Made by a program: the position numbers and the translations under genes
Part shown: piece by piece, positions 6,925-58,305 of the stretch
Layout: each line of letters starts with the position of its first letter
Numbering within the stretch: the stretch's first letter is position 1
NCBI RefSeq assembly: GCF_015207375.1
Contig: NZ_JADEWY010000016.1
Span: forward strand, 1 to 64,000
Direction: 5' to 3'
DNA from: Coleofasciculus sp. LEGE 07092
GTDB lineage: Bacteria > Cyanobacteriota > Cyanobacteriia > Cyanobacteriales > Coleofasciculaceae
DNA length: 64,000 nt
Notes under the pieces: generated by a model
The model's input: only the letters and a program-made list of their open reading frames with translations
Database searches by the model: none
What the model was told of the DNA's origin: nothing

Positions 6925-7917
6925 ATGCCCACTGTTAACACTAACACCAAACAAAAGACAACCAAGCCCACGTTCTCGGCAGATATGGTGCGTACCTACC
7001 TGCACGAGATCGGTCGCGTACCGCTACTGACCCATGAGCAAGAAATTGTCTATGGAAAGCAAGTGCAGCAGATGATGCAACTTGTAGAGGCGAAAGAAGC
7101 CCTAGAGGAAACCTTGCAGCGCGAACCGACCCTGAAAGAGTGGGCTGCTGACATCAAGCTTGATGAATCTGCCCTCAAGAAAATTATAAGCCAGGGAACG
7201 CGGGCTAAACGCAAGATGATCGAAGCGAACCTGCGTTTAGTTGTAGCGATCGCGAAAAAGTATCAAAAGCGTAACATGGAATTTCTGGACTTGATCCAGG
7301 AAGGAACCCTCGGCTTAGAGCGAGGTGTAGAGAAATTTGACCCGACACGGGGCTATAAGTTTTCCACCTACGCCTACTGGTGGATTCGTCAGGCAATTAC
7401 CCGTGCGATCGCGCAGCAAGCGCGTGCGATTCGGCTGCCCATTCACATTACCGAAAAACTCAACAAAATCAAGAAAGTTCAGCGAGAACTCTCCCAAAAG
7501 TTGGGGCGCAACCCTACACCGGCTGAGATCGGTGAGGAGTTGGAATTAGAACCCGCCCAGATTCGGGAGTACTTGAGCATTGCCCGTCAACCCGTTTCTT
7601 TAGATGTGCGGGTAGGGGATAACCAAGATACGGAACTGTCTGACCTGCTAGAAGACAGAGGTCCAACGCCCGTACATTACACAACCCAAGAGTCCCTGCG
7701 CCAAGATCTCGATAACCTGCTGGCAGAACTCACCCCCCAACAACGGGAAGTGCTGGCGCTGCGCTTTGGGCTAGAAGACGGTCACGAACTGTCTTTGGCG
7801 AAAGTTGGTCAGCGCCTCAACCTGAGCCGGGAACGGGTGCGTCAGTTAGAACACCAAGCCCTAGCACAGCTACGCCGTCGTCATGGGAATGTCCGAGAGT
7901 ACATCGTCGCTAGTTAA
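6925..7917 (+). CDS. group 2 RNA polymerase sigma-70 factor
   Basis: 330-residue sigma-70 of the RpoD/SigA-related type that lacks a long region 1.1. Region 1.2 is at about 18-50 ([19 protein letters not shown]). Region 2 is at about 90-165, with core binding and -10 recognition ([36 protein letters not shown]). Region 3 follows, and the region 4 helix-turn-helix is at about 290-320 ([20 protein letters not shown]). The length and the opening [27 protein letters not shown] look most like the SigB-type group 2 factors of cyanobacteria, which respond to heat, dark and nutrient stress; assignment among SigB-E is uncertain. It has a very long upstream leader and its own terminator. Confidence 0.93.
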
Positions 7918-7940
7918 TGGCTAATCCGGGCATTTGCGGA

Positions 7941-7972
7941 AGTGGTAGCAGAGGTTGTTACCACTTTTTTTT
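7941..7972 (+). terminator. Rho-independent terminator after the sigma factor gene
   Basis: A 10-bp stem AGTGGTAGCA / TGTTACCACT (one G-U pair), loop GAGGT, then eight T. It begins 24 bases after the sigma factor stop codon. Confidence 0.9.
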
Positions 7973-8438
7973 CGCTAAAGAATTGTAACGTTATACGAAA
8001 TCCTATCCCTTGCTACTGAAGTTAGTAGTGAGGGGTTTTATTTATGGGATGTAGGGGGTAGGTGAAGAGACAAGGAGACATGAAAACCCTTGAGGTGTTA
8101 CTCCACTCCCCCCATTGGGGTGAGACGATTTTCACTCCTTTGAGGGAAGTTTTATACCGTGTTTCTGAGTTATCTTTTTTACATAGGATGGCTTTTTTTA
8201 CAAGGGATTATACGGAAAAAATATGTATTCAGATGTGACGGTTGAGAAACCGGTTGGAGGAGGCGCAAACAACGCCAGGGTTCAGGTTTAGATAGATAAA
8301 CAAGGAGACGGCTTAAAAGTATCGATTTTTAGGGCAAATGCAAGGTTCTCCTAGGCTTTTGGCTTGCTGCCGACTGTGCCTTAACATGACGGCATTTTTC
8401 CAGGGTGTTTCGAGGTTTTATCAAAGGAGGTAACCACC
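7973..8438. other. intergenic region upstream of exported protein gene
   Basis: 466 bases without a gene. It contains a CTC-C-CCCC-att-GGGG-T-GAG hairpin near 8104-8124 and an AT-rich part at 8160-8230 that may include the promoter of the next gene. No known RNA was recognised. Confidence 0.4.
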
Positions 8439-9041
8439 GTGATTAACCAATTAATGGGGTTCGTTTCGTCACAACATCAGCGACTTGCTTTTTGGCAATT
8501 ACCGCTCACTGGGTTACTCCTCACAGTAGGATTGATAGGGAATACCTCTATCGGGGAGAAAGCAGCCGCTCAAGAACAAGCAGAAACCGTTGATACTACT
8601 GCCGTTGCGATCGCACAAGCACAAACCTCAACTGCCTCTATTGCTGATGGTGTCTACCTTTACGGTCAATCTTCAGAACCGGAACAAATTGGTACAGAAT
8701 ATATCGTCTTTGAAGCCGATCACGGTAAGTTGCTCGGTGCTCTCTACCTACCCAATTCGGAGTTTAGCTGTTTTTACGGCACCTTAGATTCAAACCAAAT
8801 GAATCTAACAGTAGTCAATCCCTACGACCAAACCGCTTTGTCTCACACCATTGCTCGCGCCCAACCCCAGTCTATTGCAGCAGCTAGAAGTCAGCCTAAT
8901 TTAGGAAATACCTACGAATCCCTAACCTATCCCCATACCGTCTCCCTCGAAGGCTATCAACCCGTTGGCAAACTCAGTGATAACGATAAACGTATCTTGA
9001 GTACCTGTCGAGAGAGTTATCAAGAACGGGTTGGGAATTAG
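8439..9041 (+). CDS. hypothetical exported protein
   Basis: 200 residues starting at GTG, chosen because AAAGGAGG lies about 10 bases upstream. A hydrophobic stretch at about 20-38 followed by AAAQEQ looks like a Sec signal peptide with cleavage near AAAQ. The mature part has a YLYGQSSEPEQIGTEYIVFE core seen in other cyanobacterial hypothetical proteins, plus a single Cys near each end that could form a disulfide. I do not recognise a functional family. It stands alone on this strand. Confidence 0.7.
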   Translation: MINQLMGFVSSQHQRLAFWQLPLTGLLLTVGLIGNTSIGEKAAAQEQAETVDTTAVAIAQAQTSTASIADGVYLYGQSSEPEQIGTEYIVFEADHGKLLGALYLPNSEFSCFYGTLDSNQMNLTVVNPYDQTALSHTIARAQPQSIAAARSQPNLGNTYESLTYPHTVSLEGYQPVGKLSDNDKRILSTCRESYQERVGN

Positions 9042-9047
9042 AACGTC

Positions 9048-9230
9048 TCAACACCCCATATCAAACCCTTCGGGGGGCAGTATGTCCATCGCTTGCATCT
9101 GGATTAGTGTTGGGGCAGTAGTCAACTGTTCAATTTGAGTCAGTAAGGTTTTAGCTTCAAGATCGCCATTGTCAGCTCGGTGTTTGAGGTAGAGTTTGAG
9201 TTGGTTGACTAGGGTATCGGGGACGTTCAT
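9048..9230 (-). CDS. small hypothetical protein
   Basis: About 60 residues from the ATG giving MNVPDTLVNQLKLYLKHRA; an in-frame TTG upstream adds six. It is mostly amphipathic helix and acidic, with no membrane segment. The regular coding pattern and compact helical character suggest a real gene, but I recognise no family. It may share a transcript with the AAA-WD40 gene upstream on the same strand. Confidence 0.45.
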   Translation of the reverse strand: MNVPDTLVNQLKLYLKHRADNGDLEAKTLLTQIEQLTTAPTLIQMQAMDILPPEGFDMGC

Positions 9231-9268
9231 GTTTACAGGGGTTTTCAAGTGAATAGACTACATTTTGA

Positions 9269-9296
9269 CCCCCCTAGCTCCCCTTATCAAGGGGGG
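9269..9296. repeat. C-run/G-run hairpin repeat
   Basis: CCCCCCTAGCTCCCCTT and AAGGGGGG form a hairpin between two minus-strand genes. Sequences of this kind recur in cyanobacterial intergenic DNA, and a related one lies near 58650-58690. It could act as a transcript end. Confidence 0.55.
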
Positions 9297-9365
9297 ACTG
9301 TGCCAGACTAACTCGCAAAGTGCTGTAAATAAAAGTTCTATCTCAGATATTGCACCATTTCCAAA

Positions 9366-12300
9366 TTAGTGAGTGTTAAGGTACTGTGTGTTTCGCCGCA
9401 GCGCTTTGCGATCGCACAAATGTCTGTCACTCTCTTCCACCTCGATATTCGTCTGCAAATAATCCTGCACCCAATTGCAACCATAGGATAACACTTGCTC
9501 AAGCTTGACTACCTGATCTAAATCCCACAAAATAATCGTTTTGTCTACACTAGCTGAAGCAATGGTTCTGCCATCTGGACTGAAAGCAACGTCGTAAACG
9601 CGATCGCTATGCTTTTCGAGAGTGGTGATAAACGTACCGTCACGCCTCCAGAGTTTGATCGTATTGTCCCAAGAAGTCGAGGCAATTATTTTATTATCAG
9701 GACTAAAGGCAAGACCATCAACGCGATCGCCATGTCCTGCTAGAGTAGCGAGAAAGGTGCCATCACGCTTCCAGAGTTTGACGGTATTATCCCAACTTGC
9801 AGAGACAAGACGCTGACTATCCGGGCTAAACGCTACTGCCCGAATTACGTCCTTATGCCCACTCAGCGTTCTTAGCAACGTGCCGTCAGGCTTCCAGAGT
9901 TTAATGGTCTTATCTCCACTCGCTGATGCCAAAAGCTGACCGTCCCGACTAAAAGCGACTCCATGAACTGGTGCGCTATGTCCTTGAAGAGTTTTTACCA
10001 ACGTGCCGTCAGGCTTCCAGAGTTTAATGGTCTTATCTCCACTGACTGATGCTAAAAGCTGACCGTCAGGGCTAAACGCTACTTTATAAATTGTATCACT
10101 ATGACCCTGGAGAGTCTGAAGTAAAAGACCCTCCTTGCTCCAGAGTTTAACCGTCTTATCCCGACTTGCCGAAGCAATCGTTTCACCATTGGGACTAAAA
10201 GCAACGTCGAGAACTGCATCCTGATGTCCATACAAGGTTTTCAACAAGGTGCCGTCTATTTTCCAGAGCTTGATAGTACTATCCCAACTGGCAGATACTA
10301 AGGTTTTACCGTCGGGGCTGAATGCCACTCCCCAAACAGCATCCCTATGTCCAGGAAGGACTCTCAACAAGGTATTTTCAAGGGTCCAAAGTTTGATTGT
10401 TTTGTCCCAACTGGCAGATGCTAGGGTTTTACCGTCGGGACTGAACGCAACTCCCCAAATAGCATTGGTATGCCCTTTGAAGGTAGTCAGTTGGGTGCCA
10501 TCGATTTTCCAGAGTCTGATAGTTCTATCCCAACTCCCGGAGGCTAAAATTTGACCGTCGGGACTAAAGGCAACACCGTAAACCCCATCACTATGTCCTT
10601 CTAGAGTTCTTAGCAGAGTTCCGTCATCCCTCCAGAGTTTCACTGTTCCATCAAAACAGGTTGATGCCAGGGTTTGACTGTTGGGGCTAAATGCCACACC
10701 GTTAATCCCGTCATTATGACCCCTAAGAGTTTTCAGTAACGTGCCGTCAGGCTGCCAGAGTTTGATAGTACTATCCCAACTTGCTGATGCCAGCATCTGA
10801 TTATTTGGGCTAAATGCCACGCCTCGAACTTCGTCAGTATGTCCTGTTAAGGTAGTCAGCAAAGTGCCGTCTATTTTCCAGAGTTTTACAGTTCTATCGG
10901 CACTTCCAGAAGCAATAATTTCACCATCTCGACTGAATGCCACGCTATTGACGCCATCACTATGTCCGTTTATTGTTCTCAGCAGAGTCCCGTCACGCTT
11001 CCAGAGTTTAACCGTCTTATCTCCACTGGCTGAAGCGATAAGCTGACTGTCGGGGCTAATTGCTACTCCTCTGATCTTATCGCTATGCCCTTTGAGTGTA
11101 ATCAGTAAGGTGCCATCCGGTTGCCAAAGTTTAACGGTTGTGTCCTCACTGGCGGAGGCAATTAGAGAACCATCAAGACTGAAAGCGACGGTATAAACGC
11201 CCTGACGATGACTCGATAAGCGGTTATGTTCTTTAACTCCATACACGGTTCGGCGCAATACCTGTTCAACTTGGTTCTCCGTCTCGGTGTCTGTCCTCCC
11301 TAGGGTTTGTAGTTTTTGTTTGGCTTTAATGGCGGCTATTAGGGCATCCAATCGTTTATCGACAGCAAATAAAGCCTCAGATGAGGTGGCGATTGCTTTA
11401 ATTTCACTAATCGCTAATCGGTGGTTTTGAATCAGCATTGCCCCTGCGAGTCCACTCGCCACGAGAAAGGCGATACAAAAGGTCGCTAGTAACAATCGCT
11501 GTTTTTTGGCAACCTCTTGTTCGGCTTTGAGCCGGGCTTCAATTTCTTTGATGCGTTCGGCTTCCAACCGTTGTTGAACATCTTTTCGATCTAATTCTTC
11601 GCTGGCGGCTAAAAATTGATAATCGAGATCGCTCAAACTTTTGTCCCGCGCCCAAGCTTGCGCCTCTTTGAGAGCTTGTCCCCGCAATAATCGTGATTCA
11701 TCCTGTTGTTTGGAGGCTATCCAGGTATCGAAATTTTGAGAATAGGGACGAAGAGAGGTTAACTGTTTTTCGACCCATTCGAGGTTGAATACCTCTTGAT
11801 AAATTCGGTTTTTAAGTTTCAGATATCCTTGCTGTTTGACGACTAAGCCTGATAGCAGCAGTTCAATTTGCTCTGGAGAGTCATCGGTTTCGATTCCCCC
11901 GGCATCACTTAAATCAAATTGTAAGAGTTGCTGATAGATACCCAATAATCTGCCAGCCCGTTGCTCGTTTTTTAAGATGCGATCGCGGATTGTTCTTAAA
12001 TGCTCTGGTTCATCAGCAGATTCCCATTTGTAGATAATGTGCTTGTGTATTATTGATTCCACCCAAAAGGCTTCGGTTCCCGGTGGAATTTGCCAAACTT
12101 CACTCCCGGCATCAGAGGCAATATATCGCGTTTCTACAAGATTTTGTAGCAGTTGACACAGCTTTTGGGTCAGAAAGGGTTGTCCGCTTGTCCAGGCTAA
12201 TATCTGTTTGAGAATGGCTTGGGGATTTGAGAACTTCTCCTTTAATCCTTTAGCTAAGGGTTGAGCTTCCTCTAGAGTAAAGCCTTGCAAATCTATGGCT

Positions 12301-37951: not shown

Positions 37952-38398
37952 ATGTCCAAAACGCGATATGAAACCGACTATCATCGATGGCTCGAAGAAA
38001 CGGTCAACCAATTACGAGAACGGAATTTTAATGAGGTTGATTGGGATAATTTGATAGAAGAGTTAGAAAGTATGGGAAAAAGTGATAGACGGGCTGTATT
38101 AAGTCTTTTAACCCGTTTATTAGAACATCTACTGAAATTATCCTATTGGGAAGCCGAAAAAGAGCATTCAGGCAATCATTGGGCTGCGGAAATTGTCAAC
38201 TTTCGCGCTCAGATTCAACATCGTTTAGAAGATAGTCCCAGTTTAAAACCTGAACTTGAAGCAATGTATGCTAAAGCATATCCTGTAGCGGTTAAGTCTG
38301 TCTCTAAGCTGTTTTCACTGCCGGAAGATGCTCATATTTCTCTAGAACAAGCCTTAGATGAAGATTGGTTTATTGTAGATAAATCTGAAGATTTTTGA
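37952..38398 (+). CDS. DUF29 domain-containing protein
   Basis: 148 residues, all-helical, with the DUF29 pattern: YETDYHRWLEETVNQLRERN, then VDWDNLIEELESMGKSDRRA and LLEHLLKLSYWEAE. GGAGAAG lies upstream of ATG. DUF29 proteins are very abundant in cyanobacteria, often near toxin-antitoxin or mobile DNA; a function is not established. It marks the left edge of the accessory region reaching to 43.9 kb. Confidence 0.9.
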   Translation: MSKTRYETDYHRWLEETVNQLRERNFNEVDWDNLIEELESMGKSDRRAVLSLLTRLLEHLLKLSYWEAEKEHSGNHWAAEIVNFRAQIQHRLEDSPSLKPELEAMYAKAYPVAVKSVSKLFSLPEDAHISLEQALDEDWFIVDKSEDF

Positions 38399-38439
38399 GT
38401 GAAGTGTCGCTAAGTGAATAGGCGAAGAGAAGTCCCTCG

Positions 38440-38496
38440 GATAATGACGTGCAAACAGAACTGATTTTTGACTGGGAACGGGATCATTATCAGTAG
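38440..38496 (+). pseudogene. XisI-family remnant
   Basis: The frame SDNDVQTELIFDWERDHYQ ending in TAG matches the region DVEVQxIFDxERDHYQ of XisI, a small protein named for control of fdxN element excision and usually paired with XisH. Only about 19 residues remain. The rest of the gene (normally about 110 residues) is missing on both sides. Confidence 0.55.
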
Positions 38497-38690
38497 GCGG
38501 AAGGCGATCGCCCGAACAGCAATTACACTTCTCAGATTGAGGTGTGGCAAGCGATGCTGGGAAAGTTGGGAGGGAATGAATGAGCGATAAGCTTTCTTCG
38601 GTATGCAACGCTTGCGCCCCCTCCTTTCCGTCCGATACTTTCGCCTACAATGAGGCTACAGCTCGCGTTGCTAATTAAACTAACTGCTCT

Positions 38691-38900
38691 ATGCCAGAAA
38701 TCGTAGAGATTCCTATCGAACTAACCCGATTCCAGCTTCCCCAAGCGGTTCACGCACGCTTACAATTTTTGTTGGATCGTCAGGACGAGGGCTATACACT
38801 GTCTCAGGCAGAACGACAGGAAGCAGAAGGACTTGTGGAACTGGTGGAATTTTTATCTCTACTGCGTTTGCGATCGACACGGGTGATGAAGCAAGCATAG
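38691..38900 (+). CDS. small protein paired with an HNH gene
   Basis: 69 residues (MPEIVEIPIELTRFQLPQAV), helical and acidic, with ERQEAEGLVELVEFLSLLRL. I know this type as a conserved cyanobacterial small protein encoded directly before an HNH endonuclease gene. Here its stop codon is followed without a gap by the ATG of the decayed HNH gene, so the pair was an operon. Its role may be regulation or inhibition of the nuclease (inference). Confidence 0.7.
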   Translation: MPEIVEIPIELTRFQLPQAVHARLQFLLDRQDEGYTLSQAERQEAEGLVELVEFLSLLRLRSTRVMKQA

Positions 38901-39103
38901 ATGGCAACGATTCCAGCTTCCCTGCGTCGATTAGTCATTCAAAGAGCAGATAATGGAAAGAACACTTTGATTGAAACGGTGTGCAAGTTGCCGGGTTGAC
39001 AGCTACAGGTAGAGCAACGGTGCAAGCACTTGATTTGAATCGAGCAACAATGTTGGCGATTAGGGCAGAAGAGGAATTGCTAGGTCGTCATCCACCACCC
39101 TAA
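38901..39103 (+). pseudogene. HNH endonuclease gene with the catalytic core deleted
   Basis: It begins MATIPASLRRLVIQRA, the normal N terminus of cyanobacterial HNH proteins, and ends with GLTATGRATVQALDLN and LAIRAEEELLGRHPPP, their normal C terminus. The about 75 residues between, with the CxxC and HNH motifs, are missing. A frame change at about 38995 follows, since the first frame stops at 38999. This is an internally deleted, frameshifted pseudogene, still directly joined to its small upstream partner. Confidence 0.8.
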
Positions 39104-39177
39104 ACTTGCCTTGACTGAAGTTGCTGTTCTAACGTTGGCAGGCAATGAATGAGCGATCGCTTTTCCTCATCGTCCTA

Positions 39178-39242
39178 GGTGCGATAGCGAAGCGCTGCTG
39201 CGTTCGCCCTTGGCGTTGCCGAAGGCTAGCGCAGATCGCACC
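39178..39242. repeat. palindromic intergenic repeat
   Basis: GGTGCGAT and ATCGCACC flank a GC-rich core with GCGAAGCGCTGCTGCG and GGCTAGCGCAG. GCGAAGC/GCTAGCG-type modules recur across cyanobacterial genomes; a related one interrupts the Cas12k remnant at 43384-43440. Confidence 0.65.
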
Positions 39243-39253
39243 ACTAGTCGTAT

Positions 39254-39580
39254 TCATTCGTCTTCCTGTTGTTCTAAAATCGCCTCAATATCCCGTGCGG
39301 CGTGGAGAATTCGCACGATTTCAATGTAATCATCAAAAGATAAATAAAAAATCAGGTGCTTCTCAAATCCCTTAACTGACCACTTCCGCAAACCTTCTAA
39401 ACGGGGATTAGTTACTGGATAAGGGCGACCCATCCCTGACATTTGGGCTAATTTAGCACAGGTTTGACGTACTGCATCAAAAAATCGCAAGGCTGTATCC
39501 GAGTTATTCTGGGCGATGTAAGCAAAGTGTTCGTCTATATCTTGGCTTGCCCTTGGCGTGATGACAATGCGTTTGGTCAT
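39254..39580 (-). CDS. ParE/RelE-type toxin
   Basis: 108 residues from the ATG giving MTKRIVITPRASQDIDEHF; the frame is open further upstream but that part overlaps the antitoxin. The pattern ASQDIDEHFAYIAQNN, then GRPYPVTNPRLEGLRKWSVK and IEIVRILHAARDIEAIL is that of the ParE/RelE fold; ParE members poison gyrase. The ATG overlaps the antitoxin stop by 4 bases (ATGA), typical of type II toxin-antitoxin operons. Confidence 0.9.
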   Translation of the reverse strand: MTKRIVITPRASQDIDEHFAYIAQNNSDTALRFFDAVRQTCAKLAQMSGMGRPYPVTNPRLEGLRKWSVKGFEKHLIFYLSFDDYIEIVRILHAARDIEAILEQQEDE

Positions 39581-39828
39581 TCCTGAGTTTGTTGAAGTCC
39601 TTGCATTAACTGAGTGCGTTTTTGCTCCCACCAATCATCTGTCACTTCTATGGGTTCGCCACTATCCAAACCTTCCAGTAATAATGCCTCAACTCGTGCA
39701 GCTTCGGCTTGTTCTTGGAGAATCAGGTGCAGGATGTATTCCGACGCATTGCTATAACCTCCCTTAGCGACTTGTTGCTCGACAAACGATTGAATGCTCT
39801 CAGGAAGCGAAATATTCAGCGGGGTCAT
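39577..39828 (-). CDS. ParD-type antitoxin
   Basis: 83 residues. The N-terminal ribbon-helix-helix region is LNISLPESIQSFVEQQVAKG, then YSNASEYILHLILQEQ, which binds DNA and represses the operon in this family. The acidic C-terminal tail would wrap the ParE toxin encoded directly downstream. Confidence 0.9.
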   Translation of the reverse strand: MTPLNISLPESIQSFVEQQVAKGGYSNASEYILHLILQEQAEAARVEALLLEGLDSGEPIEVTDDWWEQKRTQLMQGLQQTQE

Positions 39829-39943
39829 AACTCTTTTACTGATTCCGGTTGTCTTTAGTCAAGTTGTTTAACTTTTAGCTTACTCTTTGTAGCTTGTTGG
39901 ATGAGGTTATCCTGTCGGGCGCGATCGCATCTCGGAGGATGAA

Positions 39944-39961
39944 TGGATGCGATCGCATCCA
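39944..39961. repeat. 18-bp perfect palindrome centred on HIP1
   Basis: TGGATGCGATCGCATCCA, a fully self-complementary extension of the HIP1 octamer, 21 bases beyond the glycosyltransferase stop. It may serve as a transcript end; HIP1 itself is a genome-wide cyanobacterial repeat. Confidence 0.7.
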
Positions 39962-39981
39962 GCACTTATTGAAGTTGCTCA

Positions 39982-41865
39982 CTATCTTTGTTTTCTCATT
40001 AGCTTCAGGTATTCTGTACGAACGTATGAATCATCTGGATGTTTTTGGAACCAAATATCAGCCTGATTAATGGCTGTTTGCTGCTGTTGTACTCTTCCTT
40101 CTTGGTTAATTAATTTGAGATATTCCCAAAAAACGTAGGAATCACAATTAGTTTCAGGCTCTTCCAACCATAAAGCCATTTTAGAAATTACCTCTTGAGA
40201 GTGTTCTGGCTTCCCTTTTTCCCTTACTAATGCAAGGTATTGCCTGAGAACATATGATTCATCTGGATGTTCTGATAGCCAAGTAGAAGACTGAACAATT
40301 GCCTCATGACATTGCTCTTTCGGTATTCCTGAGCTTCTAATCAGCTTTAGATACTCCGTAAAAACGTAGGGATCACAGTTTTCTAGATTCTCTTGTAGCC
40401 AAAGGGACATTTTTGCAATTGCTCTCTGCTGTTGTTCTAGTGAGCCTTTTTCTCTTACCAGAGCAAGGTATTTTGAACGAATATATGGTTCATCTGGATG
40501 CTTTTCCAACCAAATATCAGTCTCGTAAATTGCCTGACGGCAGGCATCAGGATTTCCTTGTTGTTTAATATCTTGGAGATTCTCTCGAATCGTTCTTGAA
40601 TCCATTTCAAATATCTCTGCTATGTCAGAGCTAGGTGTGGATTTTAATATATCTTCAAGCTCTGTAAGAACTTGGCGAGCTGCGTTTTCCCATGTCCAAA
40701 GTTTAGACAGCTTTTCTTTGAGTTTCTTAGCATTTCTCTTCGCTTTCTCTCTATCATTGGCTATTCTATAGAGGCAATCTACAACTTTTTGAATATCTGC
40801 ATCTTGAAAGGGTTTCTCACCAAATGAACCTGAGATATCAACATGATACAAACAGCCAGTTCCTTCTCCCTCAAGAGTTTGGTCTATAGCATTATACAAA
40901 CCGGTATTCTTTGAAATGATAAGCGGAACTTCAGCACTTATTGCCTCTAGACCAACAAGACCAAAACCCTCGTGAAGAGAAAGCATCATGCAAACAGTCT
41001 TTCCTCTAAGCTCATTGAACAGTTCTTCTCGATTTTCGTTATATGTCCAACCGTAAATCGATACGGCTCTTTTCGCATAATTTTCCCCTAACAATTTGAG
41101 TGACTGATTCCCCTCGTCTATCTCCTCATTAGACAATCCAATCACTACGAGTCCAGGATCTTGTCCAAGTGGGTCTGCCTTATTTTGTACGGCTTCCCCA
41201 AAACTAGCTACAGCTAAATCGGTCTGTTTAAGTAAGCCATTTTCTTTATCCAGCCGTCCAAAAGTTATCGTTGAAAAGCGGGATGGCATTTCTACTGGCT
41301 TTATCTCTGCTAAGCCTGGTTGAACTTTTATGACACGGACTTCTTTTTCCCCTCCACGAATCTTGTCTATTGCCGACTCTTCCAATTTCGGACCAATAGC
41401 GAATACAGTATCAGCTTTCTTCAGGATATTCTCTTGACGCGAAATCAGATTCTTATCGTTTTTACCTTGAAAGGGCTTGTATGCCCTGTAATCCATGTGA
41501 TGAAATACGGCGACTGGAACGTTAATATGCTCTGATAATTTAATGGCTCTCAGCCCAGTATGTACGTCATGCCCCAACACATATACAGGCTTTATTTCGC
41601 AGCCTTTAAGTTGGCTACTAACACTATTTATGTCGAGGGTAGGCTCAGCTTGGTGCGGAATAACAATAAGTTCTACGCCAAGCGACTTAGCCTCTTCGAC
41701 CTCAGCGTATTTTCCTTCATTGACAATGCAAACGACCTTTAAGTTGGGATGACCCGGTTCAGCCAAAAGTTTAGCCAAAGCTTCACAGAGGTCATAGTTA
41801 AAAGAATTGATCCCTCCGTGACGCGACCCCCAAGCGGTCGCAAAAAATACGAGGCATTCATTCAT
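39982..41865 (-). CDS. GT4-type glycosyltransferase with C-terminal helical repeats
   Basis: About 627 residues from the ATG giving MNECLVFFATAWGSRHGG; the longer frame would run into the upstream gene. Residues about 1-400 form a GT-B fold. The N-terminal GGINSFNYDLCEALAKLL is typical, as are GRLDKENGLLKQTDLAVASF and the donor site SLHEGFGLVGLEAISAEVPL. Residues about 420-627 carry repeated units near 37 residues with (Y/C)DPYVFTEYLKLI and HPDESYVLRQYLALVREKG, likely TPR-like. A membrane-anchored gene ends 14 bases upstream on the same strand, so they form a pair. The sugar and acceptor are unknown. Confidence 0.82.
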   Translation of the reverse strand: MNECLVFFATAWGSRHGGINSFNYDLCEALAKLLAEPGHPNLKVVCIVNEGKYAEVEEAKSLGVELIVIPHQAEPTLDINSVSSQLKGCEIKPVYVLGHDVHTGLRAIKLSEHINVPVAVFHHMDYRAYKPFQGKNDKNLISRQENILKKADTVFAIGPKLEESAIDKIRGGEKEVRVIKVQPGLAEIKPVEMPSRFSTITFGRLDKENGLLKQTDLAVASFGEAVQNKADPLGQDPGLVVIGLSNEEIDEGNQSLKLLGENYAKRAVSIYGWTYNENREELFNELRGKTVCMMLSLHEGFGLVGLEAISAEVPLIISKNTGLYNAIDQTLEGEGTGCLYHVDISGSFGEKPFQDADIQKVVDCLYRIANDREKAKRNAKKLKEKLSKLWTWENAARQVLTELEDILKSTPSSDIAEIFEMDSRTIRENLQDIKQQGNPDACRQAIYETDIWLEKHPDEPYIRSKYLALVREKGSLEQQQRAIAKMSLWLQENLENCDPYVFTEYLKLIRSSGIPKEQCHEAIVQSSTWLSEHPDESYVLRQYLALVREKGKPEHSQEVISKMALWLEEPETNCDSYVFWEYLKLINQEGRVQQQQTAINQADIWFQKHPDDSYVRTEYLKLMRKQR

Positions 41866-41879
41866 AGCTGTAAAATTTA

Positions 41880-42602
41880 CTAGGAGAATGGAATAAACGC
41901 TGTGTCTGCCAAATCTTTCTCTAGTCTTGCAGATTTGTATCCATATGTTAAAGGTGATTGTAATGTAATGATTAGGCAAAACTGTTTTTTATTTCCAAAT
42001 TTCTTTCTCAATAAATTATCGTAGTTTTGGATTAAATAGTGAATAGCTCCCTGATTACTTCTTGCTGTCTGTCCACAAATTAGAATCACAGGATGAGAAG
42101 TTGAACTAGGATATAGTCTTGCCAAAACAGCGTGTTCGCTCTTGTTTTTCTCATATCTAAATTTCTCGTCTTTAGTAACAATCGCGATATTATCGGGGTC
42201 ACCCGGCGCGTAAGGTTTCAGATGAATCCCCTTGAGAAAATTTTCTAAATGTACTCTGGTTCTTTGATTGGAGTCCGGACCACCTATACAAAATTCTGTC
42301 GTGCCTCCAGCAGGTTCCAGTATTTCATCGAAGGGAGCAATAATTAATTTAGAGCCAATTTCATCTACAAGCCTAACAACTTCAATCAACGTCTGTACGT
42401 CTGAATGAGACATTGTATTCGGGATTTTAGGATTATGATTCATCACTGCAAGGCATCTTTCTTTTGGTAAAAGACCAAAAAAGGCAGCCCTCCGATTTAT
42501 GATTCTGGATTTGCGTAGCTTTTCCCATAGCCAAACAGCAAGGGCTGTTACAATACTTGTTACAATACCAACTACAAAGTTTTCAATAACTGATGGAGAC
42601 AT
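41880..42602 (-). CDS. membrane-anchored protein of unknown function, partner of the glycosyltransferase
   Basis: 240 residues from ATG (MSPSVIENF); a TTG five codons upstream is in frame. One N-terminal membrane helix (VVGIVTSIVTALAVWLWEKL). The soluble domain has LAVMNHNP, then IEVVRLVDEIGSKLIIAPFDE, FCIGGPDSNQRT, EHAVLARLYPSS and VILICGQTARSNQGAIHYLI, an alternating strand-helix plan with a GGPxSN loop near the middle. It reminds me of uncharacterised bacterial proteins with GGPxxN and a late GxxxxG(T/A) motif, but I cannot name a family. It lies directly before the glycosyltransferase, so a joint function is likely. Confidence 0.6.
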   Translation of the reverse strand: MSPSVIENFVVGIVTSIVTALAVWLWEKLRKSRIINRRAAFFGLLPKERCLAVMNHNPKIPNTMSHSDVQTLIEVVRLVDEIGSKLIIAPFDEILEPAGGTTEFCIGGPDSNQRTRVHLENFLKGIHLKPYAPGDPDNIAIVTKDEKFRYEKNKSEHAVLARLYPSSTSHPVILICGQTARSNQGAIHYLIQNYDNLLRKKFGNKKQFCLIITLQSPLTYGYKSARLEKDLADTAFIPFS

Positions 42603-42820
42603 TGATCCTGAAGCCAATAGGGTTGTAGTAGAATTCAGTGCAGTCGTCTGGCGATTTCGCTCACTCGTACAGAATTAATGCCAACAACATCATAATCTAG
42701 TAAATGAATTGTCAGACTGACTCATCTACCTCTTAAAGCTTCTGAGGTTTTCTCGCAAGCGTTGATGAATGCGATCGCCTTTTCCAAATCAAACTCTACT
42801 AGGAAAGAGCGATCGCTCTC

Positions 42821-43030
42821 TCAACAAGTTTCGACATATTCACATAGAGTAGTTGGTTCGGGAATGGGTAAACCCTCTTCTCGCAAACCATCCCAATGAA
42901 AAGCGATCGCTTCTTTTATCTGCTGTTCCATCTCTTCAAGAGTTGCACCTGTTGCCACACATCCAGGTAAATCTGGAACATAAGCTGAATAATTACTCTC
43001 CAGCTTTTCAATCACAATCGCATAGCGCAT
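42821..43030 (-). CDS. hicB: HicB-type antitoxin
   Basis: 69 residues beginning MRYAIVIEKLESNYSAYVPD, then LPGCVATGATLEEMEQQIKE, AIAFHWDGLREEGLPIPEP. This is the partial RNase H-like fold of HicB, which neutralises HicA. Its ATG overlaps the original hicA stop (TAATG). Because hicA has shifted frame, hicB is now also the C-terminal part of one continuous frame reaching 43264. Confidence 0.88.
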   Translation of the reverse strand: MRYAIVIEKLESNYSAYVPDLPGCVATGATLEEMEQQIKEAIAFHWDGLREEGLPIPEPTTLCEYVETC

Positions 43031-43243
43031 TACTCTTCTTCTCCTGCGTCCTTGTGTTCCTTGAGTTGAGCTTGCGTCATTATGCTGTTTAAGGTGCCAG
43101 GTACTCGCATCATCAGATGGTTTACCTGCAATTGTGACTAAACCGGACTTGGTTGGATGCTTGAACTGACGATGACTGCCCCTAGTTCTTGCTAGATACC
43201 AACCATCCTCTTCTATTAGCTTAATCACTTCCCTAACTTTCAT
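43030..43243 (-). pseudogene. hicA: frameshifted HicA toxin gene
   Basis: The N-terminal part is normal HicA: MKVREVIKLIEEDGWYLART, then GSHRQFKHPTKSGLVTIAGK with the catalytic His. After GKPSDD the normal continuation (VPGTLNSIMTQAQLKEHKDA, then GEEE and stop) is found in another frame. A small indel near 43105-43110 has therefore moved the reading frame; the shifted frame runs through without a stop into hicB. The toxin's last helix is lost, so activity is doubtful. Confidence 0.82.
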
Positions 43244-43284
43244 GCTGTAGAAATTTTCATCCATAACCTCTCATGATACTAAAC

Positions 43285-43567
43285 GAGGTAAAGCTCAAAG
43301 CAGGTATCGTCAAGCAACTGTGTCAACCACTCAAAACTGACCCTCGCTTCAGCACTCAACCAGGGCGGTTTTATACGAGTGCGTGAAGCGTTAGCGAAGC
43401 GGTAGCGAGGAACGAGCGTCAGCTAGCGCGTAGCGGCTCGCATTAGTCGAATACATCTACAAATCCTGGTTCAAAGTCCAACAACGGTTGCAGCGCAAGT
43501 TACAGGGACAGACACGCTGGCTAGAAATGCTCAGAGGGATCAGTCAAAAGTTCAAAACCCTTATCTA
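43285..43567 (+). pseudogene. cas12k: Cas12k (type V-K CAST effector) N-terminal remnant
   Basis: Two pieces in the plus direction. 43285-43383 reads KLKAGIVKQLCQPLKTDPRF, then STQPGRFYTSA. 43440-43567 reads ALVEYIYKSWFKVQQRLQRK, then LQGQTRWLEMLRG before diverging and stopping. These match consecutive parts of the N-terminal region of Cas12k as I remember it from Scytonema hofmanni (QLCQPLKTDPRF; YIYKSW; TRWLEML). Cas12k is the nuclease-dead RNA-guided protein of CRISPR-associated Tn7-like transposons. About 70 of some 640 residues remain, split by a repeat element at 43384-43440. No tnsB, tnsC or tniQ is seen. Confidence 0.82.
43384..43440. repeat. GCGTTAGCGAAGC-type repeat inserted in the Cas12k remnant
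   Basis: About 57 bases of GCGTTAGCGAAGCGGTAGCG, then GCTAGCGCGTAGCGGCTC, separate two adjacent parts of the Cas12k sequence. The modules AGCGAAGCGG and GCTAGCGCG are characteristic cyanobacterial dispersed repeats. Its position inside recognisable coding sequence shows insertion rather than chance. Confidence 0.7.
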
Positions 43568-43692
43568 ATCTTGACTTCAGGAATTTCGACAGCGATTAAT
43601 CTTCTATTTTTTCAGGAGATTGAGCAGGAATTTTCGGCAGCCGTCAGTCATGATTCTGAAAGGGCAGCGTAGGCAAGGGTCTAGGTGGGAAG

Positions 43693-43712
43693 AGTTTCAA
43701 CGACCATCCCAG
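43693..43712 (+). CRISPR. half of a CRISPR-type direct repeat
   Basis: GTTTCAACGACCATCCCAGC closely resembles the first half of the 37-base repeats of type V-K and related cyanobacterial arrays (GTTTCAAC-A-ACCATCCC form). Only one copy is present, the second half is missing, and the upstream CTAGGTGGGAAGAG could be a worn second-half remnant. There is no array. It lies between the Cas12k remnant and the ffs 3' end. Confidence 0.5.
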
Positions 43713-43726
43713 CTGTACTACTAAAA

Positions 43727-43820
43727 GACCCGGAGTTCACGCCTATTCCAAGCATCTCGTATTGCTGCTACCTTCCGGTTCTGGCAAGGTTTGAGCGTTG
43801 GAATCGCATGAATCCGAGTC
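43727..43820 (-). ncRNA. ffs: signal recognition particle RNA (4.5S type)
   Basis: On the minus strand the apical signature AACCGGAAGGTAGCAGCAA has the GGAA tetraloop closed by CC/GG and the AGCAGC side of the internal loop bound by Ffh. Outer pairing is extensive: GACTCGGA with TCCGGGTC, TTCATGC with GCGTGAA, and GATTCCAA with TTGGAAT. A T-run follows the 3' end. Length near 94 fits the small bacterial SRP RNA. It works with Ffh in membrane targeting of nascent proteins. Ends are set by the base pairing. Confidence 0.93.
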
Positions 43821-43997: not shown

Positions 43998-45173
43998 CTA
44001 ATTCGCGCCGATACCGAAGAGTTCTTCAATCTCTGCACGTGTTGTCGAGTCTGCCAGTTCAGCCGATGACGGACTCCGACGAGTATCGGTAATCAGCCAA
44101 TCGAGTGCTGCTGCCTGAACATCAATGGTGGCACCGGTTTTGTCAACGCAGTAGCGTCCAAAGACCAACTTATCCACCACACTTACTCCGGCTCCCAAAC
44201 GGGAATATTCAAAGATAACGCTATTATCAACGATTGCCCCCTTACAGATCCGGCAATTCGCTCCAATCACGGTCGGACCGATAATCTTTGCGCCATCTTC
44301 GATATGAGTCATAGCACCAATGTAAACCGGACCTTGGATATCCACTTTGTCCCAATTGACCGCCACATTCAAACCCGTGTAGATGCCGGGAGCCACTTCC
44401 TTGCCGGGAATCGGCACATTCTTAATCTCTCCAGTCAAAACATTCCGCACCGCGTGCCAATAGTCTGGCACTTTGCCAATGTCCACCCATTCAAAATCCA
44501 TTGGCACCGCATAAAACGGAGCATTCATATTTACCAGCTTGGGAAAAAGTTCGCCGCCGATGTCAAATTCCTGACCCGATGGAATATGGTCTAAGACTTC
44601 CGGCTCAAATATATAGATACCCGTGTTGATATTGGTGCTCAAGGCTTCCTCAACGGTCGGTTTTTCCTGAAAGGCAGTAATGCGCCCCGTTTCATCCGTA
44701 ACCACAACACCGTAGCTAGAAACCCGCTCTTGCGGAACGGGTTTGGTAACAATGGTAGCAATAGCGCCCTTCTCTTTATGCCACTTCACGGCTGCCGACA
44801 AGTCCAGATCAATCAAGGCATCGCCGCACAGGACAACAAAGGTATCGTCGAAAAAAGGATAAAAGTCTTGGATTTTCCGCATCCCACCCGCAGAACCCAA
44901 GGCTTCTCCCACGAGTTGACCATCGACAATGCGACCTTCAAAGGAATAGGCAATTTCAACGCCAAAGCCCTGTCCGTCGCGGAAATAACTTTCAATCTCA
45001 TTTGCCAGATGAGAAACGTTGACAACAACTTGGTCGAAGCCATGCTGTTTCAAGAGTTCGAGCAAAAACTCCATTACAGGTTTTTGCAGGATGGGAATCA
45101 AGGGTTTGGGAATCGTATAGGTAATGGGGCGAACCCGTGTCCCCTTTCCAGCCGCCAGAATCATGGCTTTCAT
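43998..45173 (-). CDS. sugar-phosphate nucleotidyltransferase (NDP-sugar pyrophosphorylase)
   Basis: 391 residues from ATG, with GAGGAG seven bases upstream. The N-terminal nucleotidyltransferase domain (about 1-235) has the signature MILAAGKGTRVRPITYTIPK, then PLIPILQKPVMEFLLELL, metal-binding CGDALIDLD and FQEKP. A left-handed beta helix (about 260-350: IEDGAKIIGPTVIGANC) follows, as in GDP-mannose and glucose-1-phosphate pyrophosphorylases. It feeds cell-wall or exopolysaccharide synthesis; the exact sugar is uncertain. Confidence 0.9.
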   Translation of the reverse strand: MKAMILAAGKGTRVRPITYTIPKPLIPILQKPVMEFLLELLKQHGFDQVVVNVSHLANEIESYFRDGQGFGVEIAYSFEGRIVDGQLVGEALGSAGGMRKIQDFYPFFDDTFVVLCGDALIDLDLSAAVKWHKEKGAIATIVTKPVPQERVSSYGVVVTDETGRITAFQEKPTVEEALSTNINTGIYIFEPEVLDHIPSGQEFDIGGELFPKLVNMNAPFYAVPMDFEWVDIGKVPDYWHAVRNVLTGEIKNVPIPGKEVAPGIYTGLNVAVNWDKVDIQGPVYIGAMTHIEDGAKIIGPTVIGANCRICKGAIVDNSVIFEYSRLGAGVSVVDKLVFGRYCVDKTGATIDVQAAALDWLITDTRRSPSSAELADSTTRAEIEELFGIGAN

Positions 45174-45498
45174 GAATTTTCTCCTCAAGCTACTTTTATG
45201 ACTCGATATTCAAGCTCTCAATTGTGAGCTATTTTTACTAGATGCATTGACAACAGCCCACTGCCACCATAGAAAATTTATGAAGAAAATGCGAACCGTA
45301 TTTTTACTTATTTTTAATCAAATGAGTTGCCTTTTTGTATAGAAGAGATTAACTCTGATTGTTTATTAAAAATGATTCATTTATTTTTTCGTCAAAGTAA
45401 ATTTAAAACTGCAATATCCTATAGTTAGAGAGACAAAATGAGACCTCTCTATGCTTTCCATAGAGACTCAAGATAATACAAATGATCATATTCATTTA
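45174..45498. other. intergenic region
   Basis: 325 bases, very AT-rich (45300-45420), upstream of the nucleotidyltransferase gene and leading into the SulP remnant. No gene or RNA was recognised. Confidence 0.4.
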
Positions 45499-54681: not shown

Positions 54682-54976
54682 AAGTTATTGCTTCCGATAG
54701 GGTGGTGTTATCAACCGATATCTCTGAGGGGTTGAGGGTTATGCAAGATTTAACGGTGGGATTTTGGGTAGGAAATCTCAGCTCTGACCCAAAGGAGGTT
54801 GACAAATTATTTTGAATGTGAATGATTATCGCACAATGTAGGAGTTAGATAGTAGCAGTTGTTGTTGATTAATGCAAAAGTTCCCGGATGAGCAATTTGT
54901 ACAGCAAGTTGCTGCCTAAATTCCTTGGTTTTATAGGTAATCTAATCGTGATTATTTTGAGAACTGGAGCATTATT

Positions 54977-55300
54977 GTGCGGAAAGAGTATAACAAGCTG
55001 GTTCGGGATGGCATTCCTGAACTGATTCGCCAGGATAACCATGAGTATGAAGTCGTGGTGATGGGGGAGGAGGAGTATCGTGAAGCGTTGCGTCAGAAGC
55101 TAGTTGAGGAGGCGGGGGAGGTAGCTGCCGCAGATCATCAAAGGCTGGTGAGTGAGTTGGCGGATTTGTATGAGGTGATTGATGCGGTGATGGCTGCTTA
55201 TGGGATTGAGCGGGAATTGGTGTTGGTGGAACAGGTGAGGCGGCGAGTTGATCGAGGGGGGTTTTTGAAGCGGTTGAAGTTGTTGTGGACGAGGGGGTAA
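54977..55300 (+). CDS. MazG-like nucleotide pyrophosphohydrolase
   Basis: 107 residues beginning at GTG. It opens EYNKLVRDGIPELIRQDNHE and has the all-alpha NTP-PPase metal motif KLVEEAGEVAAAD followed by SELADLYEVIDAVM (ExxE plus ExxD pattern). Members hydrolyse NTPs or dNTPs or act like phosphoribosyl-ATP pyrophosphatase; this short form is often found near accessory and defence genes. The 3' end reaches 200 bases from the DUF262 gene. Confidence 0.85.
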   Translation: MRKEYNKLVRDGIPELIRQDNHEYEVVVMGEEEYREALRQKLVEEAGEVAAADHQRLVSELADLYEVIDAVMAAYGIERELVLVEQVRRRVDRGGFLKRLKLLWTRG

Positions 55301-55499
55301 TTGGGGGTAATGATGGAGGAGCGATCGCGTTTTCATGTTCAGCTATCATCGTATCTTCTGTCTCTAGCTAACAATCCCATTGCAAGCCAGAATGGTTGGA
55401 TGTCATTTAAGCCCTGCTTAGTGAGAACACTATGTAAGGGGTCTACAATCTATCCTTTCTACAGAACTTTCTACAGAACATGACATTTAAGGTTAAAGT

Positions 55500-56576
55500 A
55501 TGCCACCGAAGCAAGAAATTACAGATGAGCTGAGAGAAGCCGCAGAAGCCGAAATCTGGGAAAAGCAGAAGCCTGTCGATTACGATACAAAAGAGTATCC
55601 AGTGGAAATACTTGTTCAGAAGTACATCGACGGTAGAGATGACGACACTAACGAGTTGTTTATACCTGATTACCAAAGAGAGATGGCTTGGGATGAGACA
55701 AGACAGTCAAAATTTATAGAGTCGGTACTTTTAGGATTGCCAATACCATACATCTTTGTTGCCGATATCTACGATGAGGTAAATGATCTAGGGCGTTTAG
55801 AGATAGTAGACGGTACACAACGCATCCGTACCCTAGCTAGATTCCTCAACAATGAACTAACGCTGAAAAAATTGGAGAAGCTTGGGAAGTTAAATGATTT
55901 CACCTTCGCTGACTTACCACTTGCTCGACAGAGGCGCTTTAAACGGAGTACTCTTCGGATGATCCAATTGACCGAGAAGGCAGATGAAGAAGTACGAAGG
56001 GATATGTTTGAACGAATCAACACAGGCAGTGTTGACTTGACCGATATGGAAAAGCGCCGGGGTATATCACCAGGCCCATTTCTCGATCTGATTGAAGAAC
56101 TCTCTGAAAATTCAAAGTTCCGCAATCTATGCCCATTTTCCGAGGCTTCTATTCGCCGACGTGAACCCCAAGAATTTGTATTGCGTTTCTTCGCCTACTT
56201 AAACAATTATGAGAACTTTGAACGCCGAGTCAATGAGTTTCTTAATGACTATTTAAAAGAAAACAATCGCGAAGGGCTTGATCGTCAAGGAATGAAATAT
56301 GAATTTCAGTCAATGCTGAATTTTGTAGAAGCTCATTTTCTTAATGGATTTAGTAAAGCCAAAGGATACACAAGGACTCCTCGTATCCGCTTTGAAGCAA
56401 TTTCTGTAGGTGTTGCACTTGCCTTAAGAGAAAAGAGCAATCTGGAGCCAAAGTCAATGAAGTGGCTCAACTCTGACGAATTTAAAGAATACACTACATC
56501 CGATGCTAGCAACTCTAGACCTAAAGTAATTCGGCGGATAGAATATGTGCGAGATCAACTGTTAAGAAAATCATGA
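55500..56576 (+). CDS. DUF262 domain protein (ParB/Srx-like NTPase-nuclease family)
   Basis: 358 residues. The N-terminal DUF262 domain has FIPDYQREMAWDETRQSKFI, then ESVLLGLPIPYIFV and VDGTQRIRTLARFLN, the DGxQR site; the helical remainder includes MFERINTGSVDLTDMEKRRG. DUF262 proteins appear in restriction-type systems (for instance GmrSD). It overlaps the HEPN gene by 4 bases (ATGA), so the two are coupled. Codon use and AT content are higher than in the core genes around, suggesting transfer. Confidence 0.88.
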   Translation: MPPKQEITDELREAAEAEIWEKQKPVDYDTKEYPVEILVQKYIDGRDDDTNELFIPDYQREMAWDETRQSKFIESVLLGLPIPYIFVADIYDEVNDLGRLEIVDGTQRIRTLARFLNNELTLKKLEKLGKLNDFTFADLPLARQRRFKRSTLRMIQLTEKADEEVRRDMFERINTGSVDLTDMEKRRGISPGPFLDLIEELSENSKFRNLCPFSEASIRRREPQEFVLRFFAYLNNYENFERRVNEFLNDYLKENNREGLDRQGMKYEFQSMLNFVEAHFLNGFSKAKGYTRTPRIRFEAISVGVALALREKSNLEPKSMKWLNSDEFKEYTTSDASNSRPKVIRRIEYVRDQLLRKS

Positions 56577-57268
56577 CCAGCACATTATTTCAAGATTTCA
56601 ATGAACGCTCTAAAGAAGTAAAAAAATATTTTATTTTCCTGAAAAGTTTAGAACAGGGAACAACTAAGTTAATTATGGAAGGGAAGAATGGAGTAGCTAA
56701 AATCCGAAAGATTGACCCGGAGTTGGAGAAAACTCTCAAAGCTAGTGGATTCTTATTGCTATACAATCTGGTCGAAGCCACTATGCGTAATGCAATCGAA
56801 GCAATATTTGAGGAACTTCGTAGTAAAGGAGTTTCGTTTGACAAGATTAGACCTGAACTCAGGAAAGTTGTCCTCAAGAATGTTGCAAAACGCAATCCTG
56901 ATAAAGTCCTTTTGCAAATAACAGCTATTTCTCTTGACATTATCACGGCTGGATTCGATAAAGAAGATCTCTTTTCTGGCAACATTGATGGAAGAGAAAT
57001 TAGAAAAACAGGGGATATGTATGGGTTCTCATGTGCTACCGATTATGCTAAAACAGCGAATGGATCTGATCTATTGACCGTTAAGATAAACAGGAATGAT
57101 TTAGCACATGGTATCAAGTCCTTTGCAGAAGTAGGACGAGATCAAACTATGGGAGATCTCTTTAAGATTAAAAATAAGGTAGTCAAATACTTAAAACAAA
57201 TATTACAAAATATTGAAACCTATTTGGCGAATGAGGAATATTTGGACTCCTCGACAGGCACTTTTTAA
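56573..57268 (+). CDS. HEPN-domain protein, MAE_28990/MAE_18760 type
   Basis: 231 residues, helical. LLLYNLVEATMRNAIEAIFE is the conserved first helix and NRNDLAHGIKSFAEVG contains the Rx4-6H ribonuclease signature of HEPN domains. I recognise the pattern of the cyanobacterial MAE_28990/MAE_18760 HEPN families. It probably cleaves RNA when activated, with DUF262 as the likely control or target-recognition partner (inference). Its last four bases overlap the end of the convergent methyltransferase gene. Confidence 0.82.
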   Translation: MTSTLFQDFNERSKEVKKYFIFLKSLEQGTTKLIMEGKNGVAKIRKIDPELEKTLKASGFLLLYNLVEATMRNAIEAIFEELRSKGVSFDKIRPELRKVVLKNVAKRNPDKVLLQITAISLDIITAGFDKEDLFSGNIDGREIRKTGDMYGFSCATDYAKTANGSDLLTVKINRNDLAHGIKSFAEVGRDQTMGDLFKIKNKVVKYLKQILQNIETYLANEEYLDSSTGTF

Positions 57269-58305
57269 CTTTTATTCTTGATATGGTTCAGAATACTTTG
57301 CGCGACTACTTGACCTAATTTGACGGGGACAGCATTTCCAATCAAGCGTCCTACACGGCTAAAACCAACAGGTTCATCAGGAGCTACAAACTCATAGTTA
57401 ACCGGGAAAGTTTGCAACACTGCTGCTTCTCTGAGAGATATTGCTCTATCCTGCTCAGGATGCCCAAACCGACCGTTTCCGAAACCAAAGCACTGCGTTG
57501 TGATAGTCGGACTTGGACGATCCCATTCCATCCGACCGTAAACTGCTGGATAGGTCTTCCCACTGCGTTTAATATGGCATTCTGCAATCAGTTCCTCTGA
57601 CCAATCTCGCCAAGTTCCACCAGGCTTTGAAGCACGAATACGACGAAGATTGAGTTTTGAAAGCTTGCTGCACCGATGAAGTCGGTCAGTTTTAGAGCCT
57701 TGACCTGCTGCAAGAGGTTCCATATCACTGATAGTACTTCGTACCGTTTCAAAGCTCATCTTATCGTGGGTTGGGAGAATCAAATTAATGTTGCCGAACT
57801 TTGAGGCAAAAAAGACCAACCGCTTGCGTGTTTGAGGAATACCATAGTACAAGCAGTCAACCTTATAGGAAGTCACAAAGTAGCCTAACTGTTTCAATTC
57901 ACTAGTGAATTCATGAAAAACTTTATGCTGTTCTAACTGAGGTACATTTTCCATTGAAACAATCTCTGGAACGCATTCCCGCACAATACGAATGAAATCC
58001 TTCAAAAGCTCCCACTTTTCTGCTTGTTTGTTACCGTACCGCCTTGAATAGGTTGAAAACGGTTGACATGGAGCACATCCTGCTAACACCTTAATATCAC
58101 CCACAGGGAAATGTTGTATTAACTCAGCACCAGTAACTTCTTCAACACTTTTCAGTATGAATCTTGCTTTATTGTTGTACTCATACGGAAATTCGCACGC
58201 TGGGTCAATGTCATAGCCGACATTTACAGGAAGACCTGCCTGCTGAAAGCCGTGGGTCAGTCCCCCAGCACCGCAAAACAAATCTACTGCGGAGATGCCG
58301 ATCAT
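57265..58305 (-). CDS. DNA (cytosine-5) methyltransferase
   Basis: 346 residues. Motif I DLFCGAGGLTHGFQQAG, motif IV with catalytic Cys80 (GCAPCQPFSTY), motif VI MENV at 118-121, motif VIII QTRKRLVFFAS, and motifs IX-X near the end (SLREAAVLQTFP; GRLIGNAVPVKLGQ). The target recognition region (about 190-265) is short. It faces the DUF262-HEPN pair and shares their end, so it likely belongs to the same modification/defence locus. Sequence specificity cannot be read from the protein. Confidence 0.95.
   Translation of the reverse strand: MIGISAVDLFCGAGGLTHGFQQAGLPVNVGYDIDPACEFPYEYNNKARFILKSVEEVTGAELIQHFPVGDIKVLAGCAPCQPFSTYSRRYGNKQAEKWELLKDFIRIVRECVPEIVSMENVPQLEQHKVFHEFTSELKQLGYFVTSYKVDCLYYGIPQTRKRLVFFASKFGNINLILPTHDKMSFETVRSTISDMEPLAAGQGSKTDRLHRCSKLSKLNLRRIRASKPGGTWRDWSEELIAECHIKRSGKTYPAVYGRMEWDRPSPTITTQCFGFGNGRFGHPEQDRAISLREAAVLQTFPVNYEFVAPDEPVGFSRVGRLIGNAVPVKLGQVVAQSILNHIKNKS

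Follow-up and report, generated by a model that had tools for sequence, protein, structure and literature searches.

This locus raises the question of why half of a CRISPR repeat lies against the 3' side of ffs, the small SRP RNA gene. The original prediction took the half repeat for a remnant of a type V-K CAST and offered two explanations, namely that ffs had served as an unusual attachment site or that a deletion had carried the end of the array to it. Here, the window is the whole stretch of DNA that was analysed (64,000 nucleotides). The motif GTTTCAACGACCATCCCAGC is located at 43694–43713 on the plus strand and occurs once in the window, where shuffled sequences give an expectation of 0. 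As a 17-mer with up to two mismatches allowed, it occurs once in the 6.7 Mb genome. A 17-mer scan of public genomes recovered true cyanobacterial V-K arrays among many chance matches; the 17-mer alone gave 31 matches, unrelated genomes included, and most of these look like ordinary DNA. Because the 17-mer also matches unrelated genomes, GTTTCAACGACCATCCCAGC alone is weak evidence. The features of the locus are listed below, where L027 is the V-K CAST of Cyanobacteria bacterium UBA11372 and G002 and G008 are two genomes from the same family as the window.

43291–43383, plus strand: Cas12k N-terminal fragment KLKAGIVKQLCQPLKTDPRFSTQPGRFYTSA, 68–76% to L161, L109 and L027
43384–43436, no strand: insert of about 50 bp, dispersed-repeat type, with a stop codon (from translation frames; boundaries approximate)
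43437–43538, plus strand: Cas12k N-terminal fragment ALVEYIYKSWFKVQQRLQRKLQGQTRWLEMLRG, 53–75% to L027, L161 and L109
43539–43542, no strand: internal deletion junction between Cas12k (about residue 118) and the leader of the array, with about 1.9 kb lost relative to L027
43543–43693, plus strand: V-K array leader, 82–84% to four V-K elements
43677–43714, plus strand: end of the leader and start of the repeat, a 38-nt stretch identical to the L027 V-K CAST
43694–43714, plus strand: V-K CRISPR repeat 1, nt 1–21 of 37, with the 3' part AGGGGTGGGTTGAAAG absent
43714–43723, no strand: right deletion junction from repeat 1 to the 3' flank of ffs, 54 nt past the GTA PAM
43724–43820, minus strand: intact ffs (small SRP RNA gene), complete match to Rfam RF00169 (model 1–97, 59.9 bits)
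43751–43768, minus strand: ffs site equivalent to the anchor protospacer of G002 and G008, GCAGCAATACGAGATGCT, one mismatch to GCAGCAATACGGGATGCT
43769–43771, minus strand: GTA, a GTN-type PAM of the GCAGCAATACGAGATGCT site (from the sequence and the GTN rule, PMC9938897)

Alignment to the 37-base V-K repeats extended the match to 43714 (T), one base past GTTTCAACGACCATCCCAGC. The predicted half repeat beside ffs was borne out both by the 38 nt shared with the intact L027 array and by homology of the leader, where 43543–43714 (172 nt) is 82–84% to the leaders of four V-K CASTs (E 1.6e-39 to 1.8e-48). The predicted spacing of about 15 bases to the 3' end of ffs has to be corrected to about 10 given the complete RF00169 model. 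The window ffs is 78–92% identical to the ffs of 20 family genomes. From the ShCAST tracrRNA, we take the leader at 43543–43693 to lie outside and downstream of the mature tracrRNA, which is missing. Upstream of the leader, the first Cas12k fragment (match from 43258) is 58% to residues 42–89 of L027 Cas12k and the second is 49% to residues 82–118, with the insert splitting the protein between TSA and ALVEY. Cas12k matches nowhere else in the genome, and both fragments are broken and no longer coding. The flanking leader and Cas12k fragments settle the V-K identity of the half repeat. With the repeat, the leader and Cas12k in agreement with the relic that was originally proposed, it is near certain that 43291–43714 is a genuine type V-K CAST relic.

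The element has lost most of its parts. The roughly 1.9 kb absent relative to L027 corresponds to the rest of Cas12k and the mature tracrRNA, and the relic also lacks a crRNA handle, an array, an anchor unit, a target duplication and both ends of the transposon. When 124 ORFs from V-K loci were compared with the window, the matches were to Cas12k and to a single unrelated gene, a sigma factor (6868–7911), and none was to tnsB, tnsC or tniQ. There was no match to TnsC in the genome with a query from a distant group, and no match to V-K end motifs in the window. Because tnsB, tnsC and tniQ were not found, this is a relic and not a functional CAST; it is dead and cannot work. The present junction between repeat and ffs is a deletion product, as the second of the original explanations had it, because the array, the anchor unit and the left end are missing there.

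To see how the relic sits relative to ffs, the order of parts in intact elements is useful. In intact V-K elements, the attachment gene points inward, and next to it come the left end, an anchor spacer plus truncated repeat, the array (read in the direction of the left end), the tracrRNA and cas12k (PMC9938897). In the window, ffs occupies the slot of the tRNA attachment gene, on the array side and pointing into the element, which is the canonical orientation. The PAM rule for V-K elements is GTN, and the distance from PAM to left end is 46–82 nt in published elements (PMC9938897). In four cousins of the relic the left end begins about 58–62 nt past the PAM. The window junction lies short of this and within the published range, so the right deletion probably removed the left end plus a few bases of host flank. 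We also considered TGTAC at 43714–43718 as a surviving left-end terminus, given that some V-K left ends, such as that of L115, begin TGTACA. We did not accept it; the support comes from only 4–6 bases, and its position about 50 nt from the PAM fits the published distances and not those of the cousins.

tRNA genes are the home sites most often described for V-K CASTs. At 15 V-K loci that we sampled from the family and from cousins, the fetched stretch included a tRNA in 11 cases (Val, Phe, Pro, Cys and others), ffs in two (contig C27 of G002 and contig C695 of G008) and neither in two (L117 and L112, which are fragments only). The four closest Cas12k cousins of the relic are all at tRNA genes (Val, Phe, Val and Pro), and there are no tRNA genes in the 64 kb window. 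The Cas12k fragments of the relic are 48% and 43% to Cas12k of G008. The relic is thus closer to the L027/L109 group (71–76% and 53–75%) than to G008, which means that it did not arise by decay of a G002/G008-type element. Attachment sites vary even between close V-K CAST relatives (PMC11406308, Annual Reviews). Together with the four different tRNA genes of the cousins, this means that a switch from tRNA to ffs by the window element would be in character.

The idea that ffs can serve as an attachment site is supported by G002 and G008. In both, cas12k has the same orientation as in the window and lies about 1.1–1.3 kb from ffs (G002: cas12k 54790–56973, plus, and ffs 58054–58174, minus; G008: cas12k 7685–9859, plus, and ffs 11117–11217, minus). 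The order in both is the array, then a truncated repeat ending in TTGAAAG, then the spacer GCAGCAATACGGGATGCT, and this anchor spacer has an exact 18-nt match to the genome's own ffs behind the PAM GTA. Because the anchor spacers match ffs exactly behind GTA, ffs is, as judged from sequence, a genuine home site for V-K elements in the window's family. CASTs downstream of ffs with ffs-matching spacers, which the original prediction had suggested seeking in relatives, thus do occur. Across the order (391 genomes), the pattern TTGAAAGGCAGCAATACG, which joins the truncated repeat to the ffs anchor, was exact in only G002 and G008. A search of 390 genomes of the class that tolerated at most one mismatch gave only unrelated DNA, and these one-mismatch matches were rejected. 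The pattern is absent from the window's own genome, where the region expected to hold it is deleted. The G002 element carries tnsB, tnsC and tniQ. Inverted end repeats, 86% over 44 nt, lie upstream of tnsB beside what reads as the rbc operon, and a simple scan of G002 showed no 5-bp target duplication. Outside the family, a comparison by eye of 79 other ffs-matching genomes showed no cas12k near ffs among the cas12k places listed, which leave out weak matches; the nearest was about 59 kb away, in G370. As a side observation, the array in the V-K CAST of G001 (L109, about 5970) is a single repeat long, and directly after it comes the truncated anchor repeat with its spacer for tRNA-Val (CGAGTCCAGTTGTGTCC).

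The best-surviving alternative is that the CAST was first located elsewhere, for instance behind a tRNA downstream of ffs, and that deletion or rearrangement brought the array to ffs by accident. The tRNA sites of all the closest cousins favour this idea, as do the rearranged neighbourhood of the window ffs relative to relatives and the fact that the repeat/ffs junction is itself a deletion. However, it requires that the attachment tRNA was lost, leaving none in 64 kb, and that the accident stopped within about 10 bp of ffs in the right orientation, at the one non-tRNA gene found here to act as a V-K home site. We therefore consider an origin elsewhere unlikely. An assembly chimera joining a CAST fragment to ffs is very improbable: the assembly is a draft (296 contigs, contamination estimate 2.2%), but the junction lies in the interior of a contig that is at least 64 kb long, Cas12k has no match in the genome beyond the two relic fragments, and the geometry agrees with that of real ffs-homed CASTs. 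Two further readings, that the half repeat matches by chance or that it belongs to the host's ffs as a terminator or processing element, are refuted, despite a modest hairpin that it can form with its neighbour on the minus strand and the occurrence of the 17-mer alone in many unrelated genomes, by the unambiguously V-K nature of the adjoining 150 bp and Cas12k codons, by ffs homology that stops at 43719–43731 in 19 of 20 family loci (with one weak extension, in L041), and by the absence of the half repeat from all 20. The case of relatives with the same sequence beside ffs and no CAST history, which would have spoken against the original prediction, was thus not seen at these loci. A type I-F3b CAST, with Cascade genes (Cas5/8, Cas7, Cas6) and TnsA, is improbable at the window ffs; Cas12k and the V-K repeat of the relic argue against it.

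We conclude that the window CAST probably inserted downstream of ffs, most likely by RNA-guided homing to ffs, and then decayed. Because its own anchor guide is lost, homing of this particular element is something we infer. A truncated repeat and an anchor spacer with 17–18 nt matching ffs would have loaded Cas12k, which would have bound ffs behind a GTN PAM and brought in TniQ, TnsC and TnsB. The left end would then have been inserted about 60 nt downstream, leaving ffs intact. Two deletions could account for what remains. One would have fused the N-terminus of Cas12k to the array leader with loss of the tracrRNA, and another, from inside repeat 1 to the 3' edge of ffs, would have removed the array, the anchor unit and the left end. 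Selection for the single-copy ffs plausibly halted this second deletion.

The surroundings of ffs vary within the family. Between family members and the window (L125–L138, L107 and L108), DNA homology around ffs spans only about 120 bp, and the same holds even for G001 and G002, which belong to one genus. It seems that ffs often changes neighbourhood in this family. No empty site was obtained for comparison because the order of the host genes flanking ffs differs from one family member to the next. A nucleotidyltransferase gene beside ffs (43998–45188) has a second copy in the genome (G000:C69:14613–15722, 93%) and is far from ffs in relatives, which indicates that the region was rearranged. 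To the left of the relic, 37952–43264 encodes DUF29, a ParE-like toxin, a GT4-conflict glycosyltransferase, and HicA-HicB in one ORF. These cargo-like genes may be surviving CAST cargo; no right end was found. A 51-bp stretch near the 3' side of ffs is 92% identical between G009 (L137, 8225–8274) and the window (42767–42816) and is probably a dispersed repeat. The ORF at 1266–1640 resembles, from its translation, the C-terminal part of an IS605-type TnpB.

With ffs as a home, guides of Cas12k also use a structured RNA gene that is not a tRNA, and the same gene is chosen by an unrelated CAST type, I-F3b. This lends support to the idea that RNA genes make preferred homes when they are short, essential and highly conserved and have a safe 3' flank. 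For testing that idea, GCAGCAATACGGGATGCT with its PAM GTA, located in the conserved core of SRP RNA, offers a natural guide/target pair. The window records decay of a CAST up to, and not into, the essential ffs gene. Our literature search, which did not reach the primary V-K attachment-site surveys, found no report of a V-K CAST at ffs and no paper pairing Cas12k with the signal recognition particle; Cas12k and ffs appear together in the review, which names ffs for I-F3b (PMC11406308), and in a paper on a type I-F3 effector.

Compared with known systems, the relic resembles L027 in the identical 38 nt of leader end and repeat start, in the order and orientation of its parts, and in its Cas12k fragments (76% and 53%). 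It differs in that L027 is at tRNA-Pro with a tRNA-matching anchor spacer and a full cas12k, whereas the copy in the window is fragmentary and lies at ffs. The elements of G002 and G008 share with the relic the home gene, orientation and arrangement. By contrast, they belong to another Cas12k group (about 725 aa, 43–48% to the window fragments), have repeats that differ from those of the relic (GTTTCATTAACCCTCCCGCC... and GTTTCATCGACCCTCCCGCC...), and retain cas12k, array and anchor. ShCAST and AnCAST are alike in architecture, in the GTN PAM and in the truncated anchor repeat-spacer near the left end, but their attachment gene is a tRNA (PMC11406308, PMC9938897). Type I-F3b CASTs are likewise RNA-guided transposons that use ffs as a chromosomal attachment site (PMC11406308), but with a multi-subunit Cascade effector where the relic has Cas12k, so the choice of gene is convergent. 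On balance, we favour the idea that V-K CASTs in this family captured ffs, a universally conserved non-coding gene, at least twice, in two distinct Cas12k groups, in convergence with type I-F3b.
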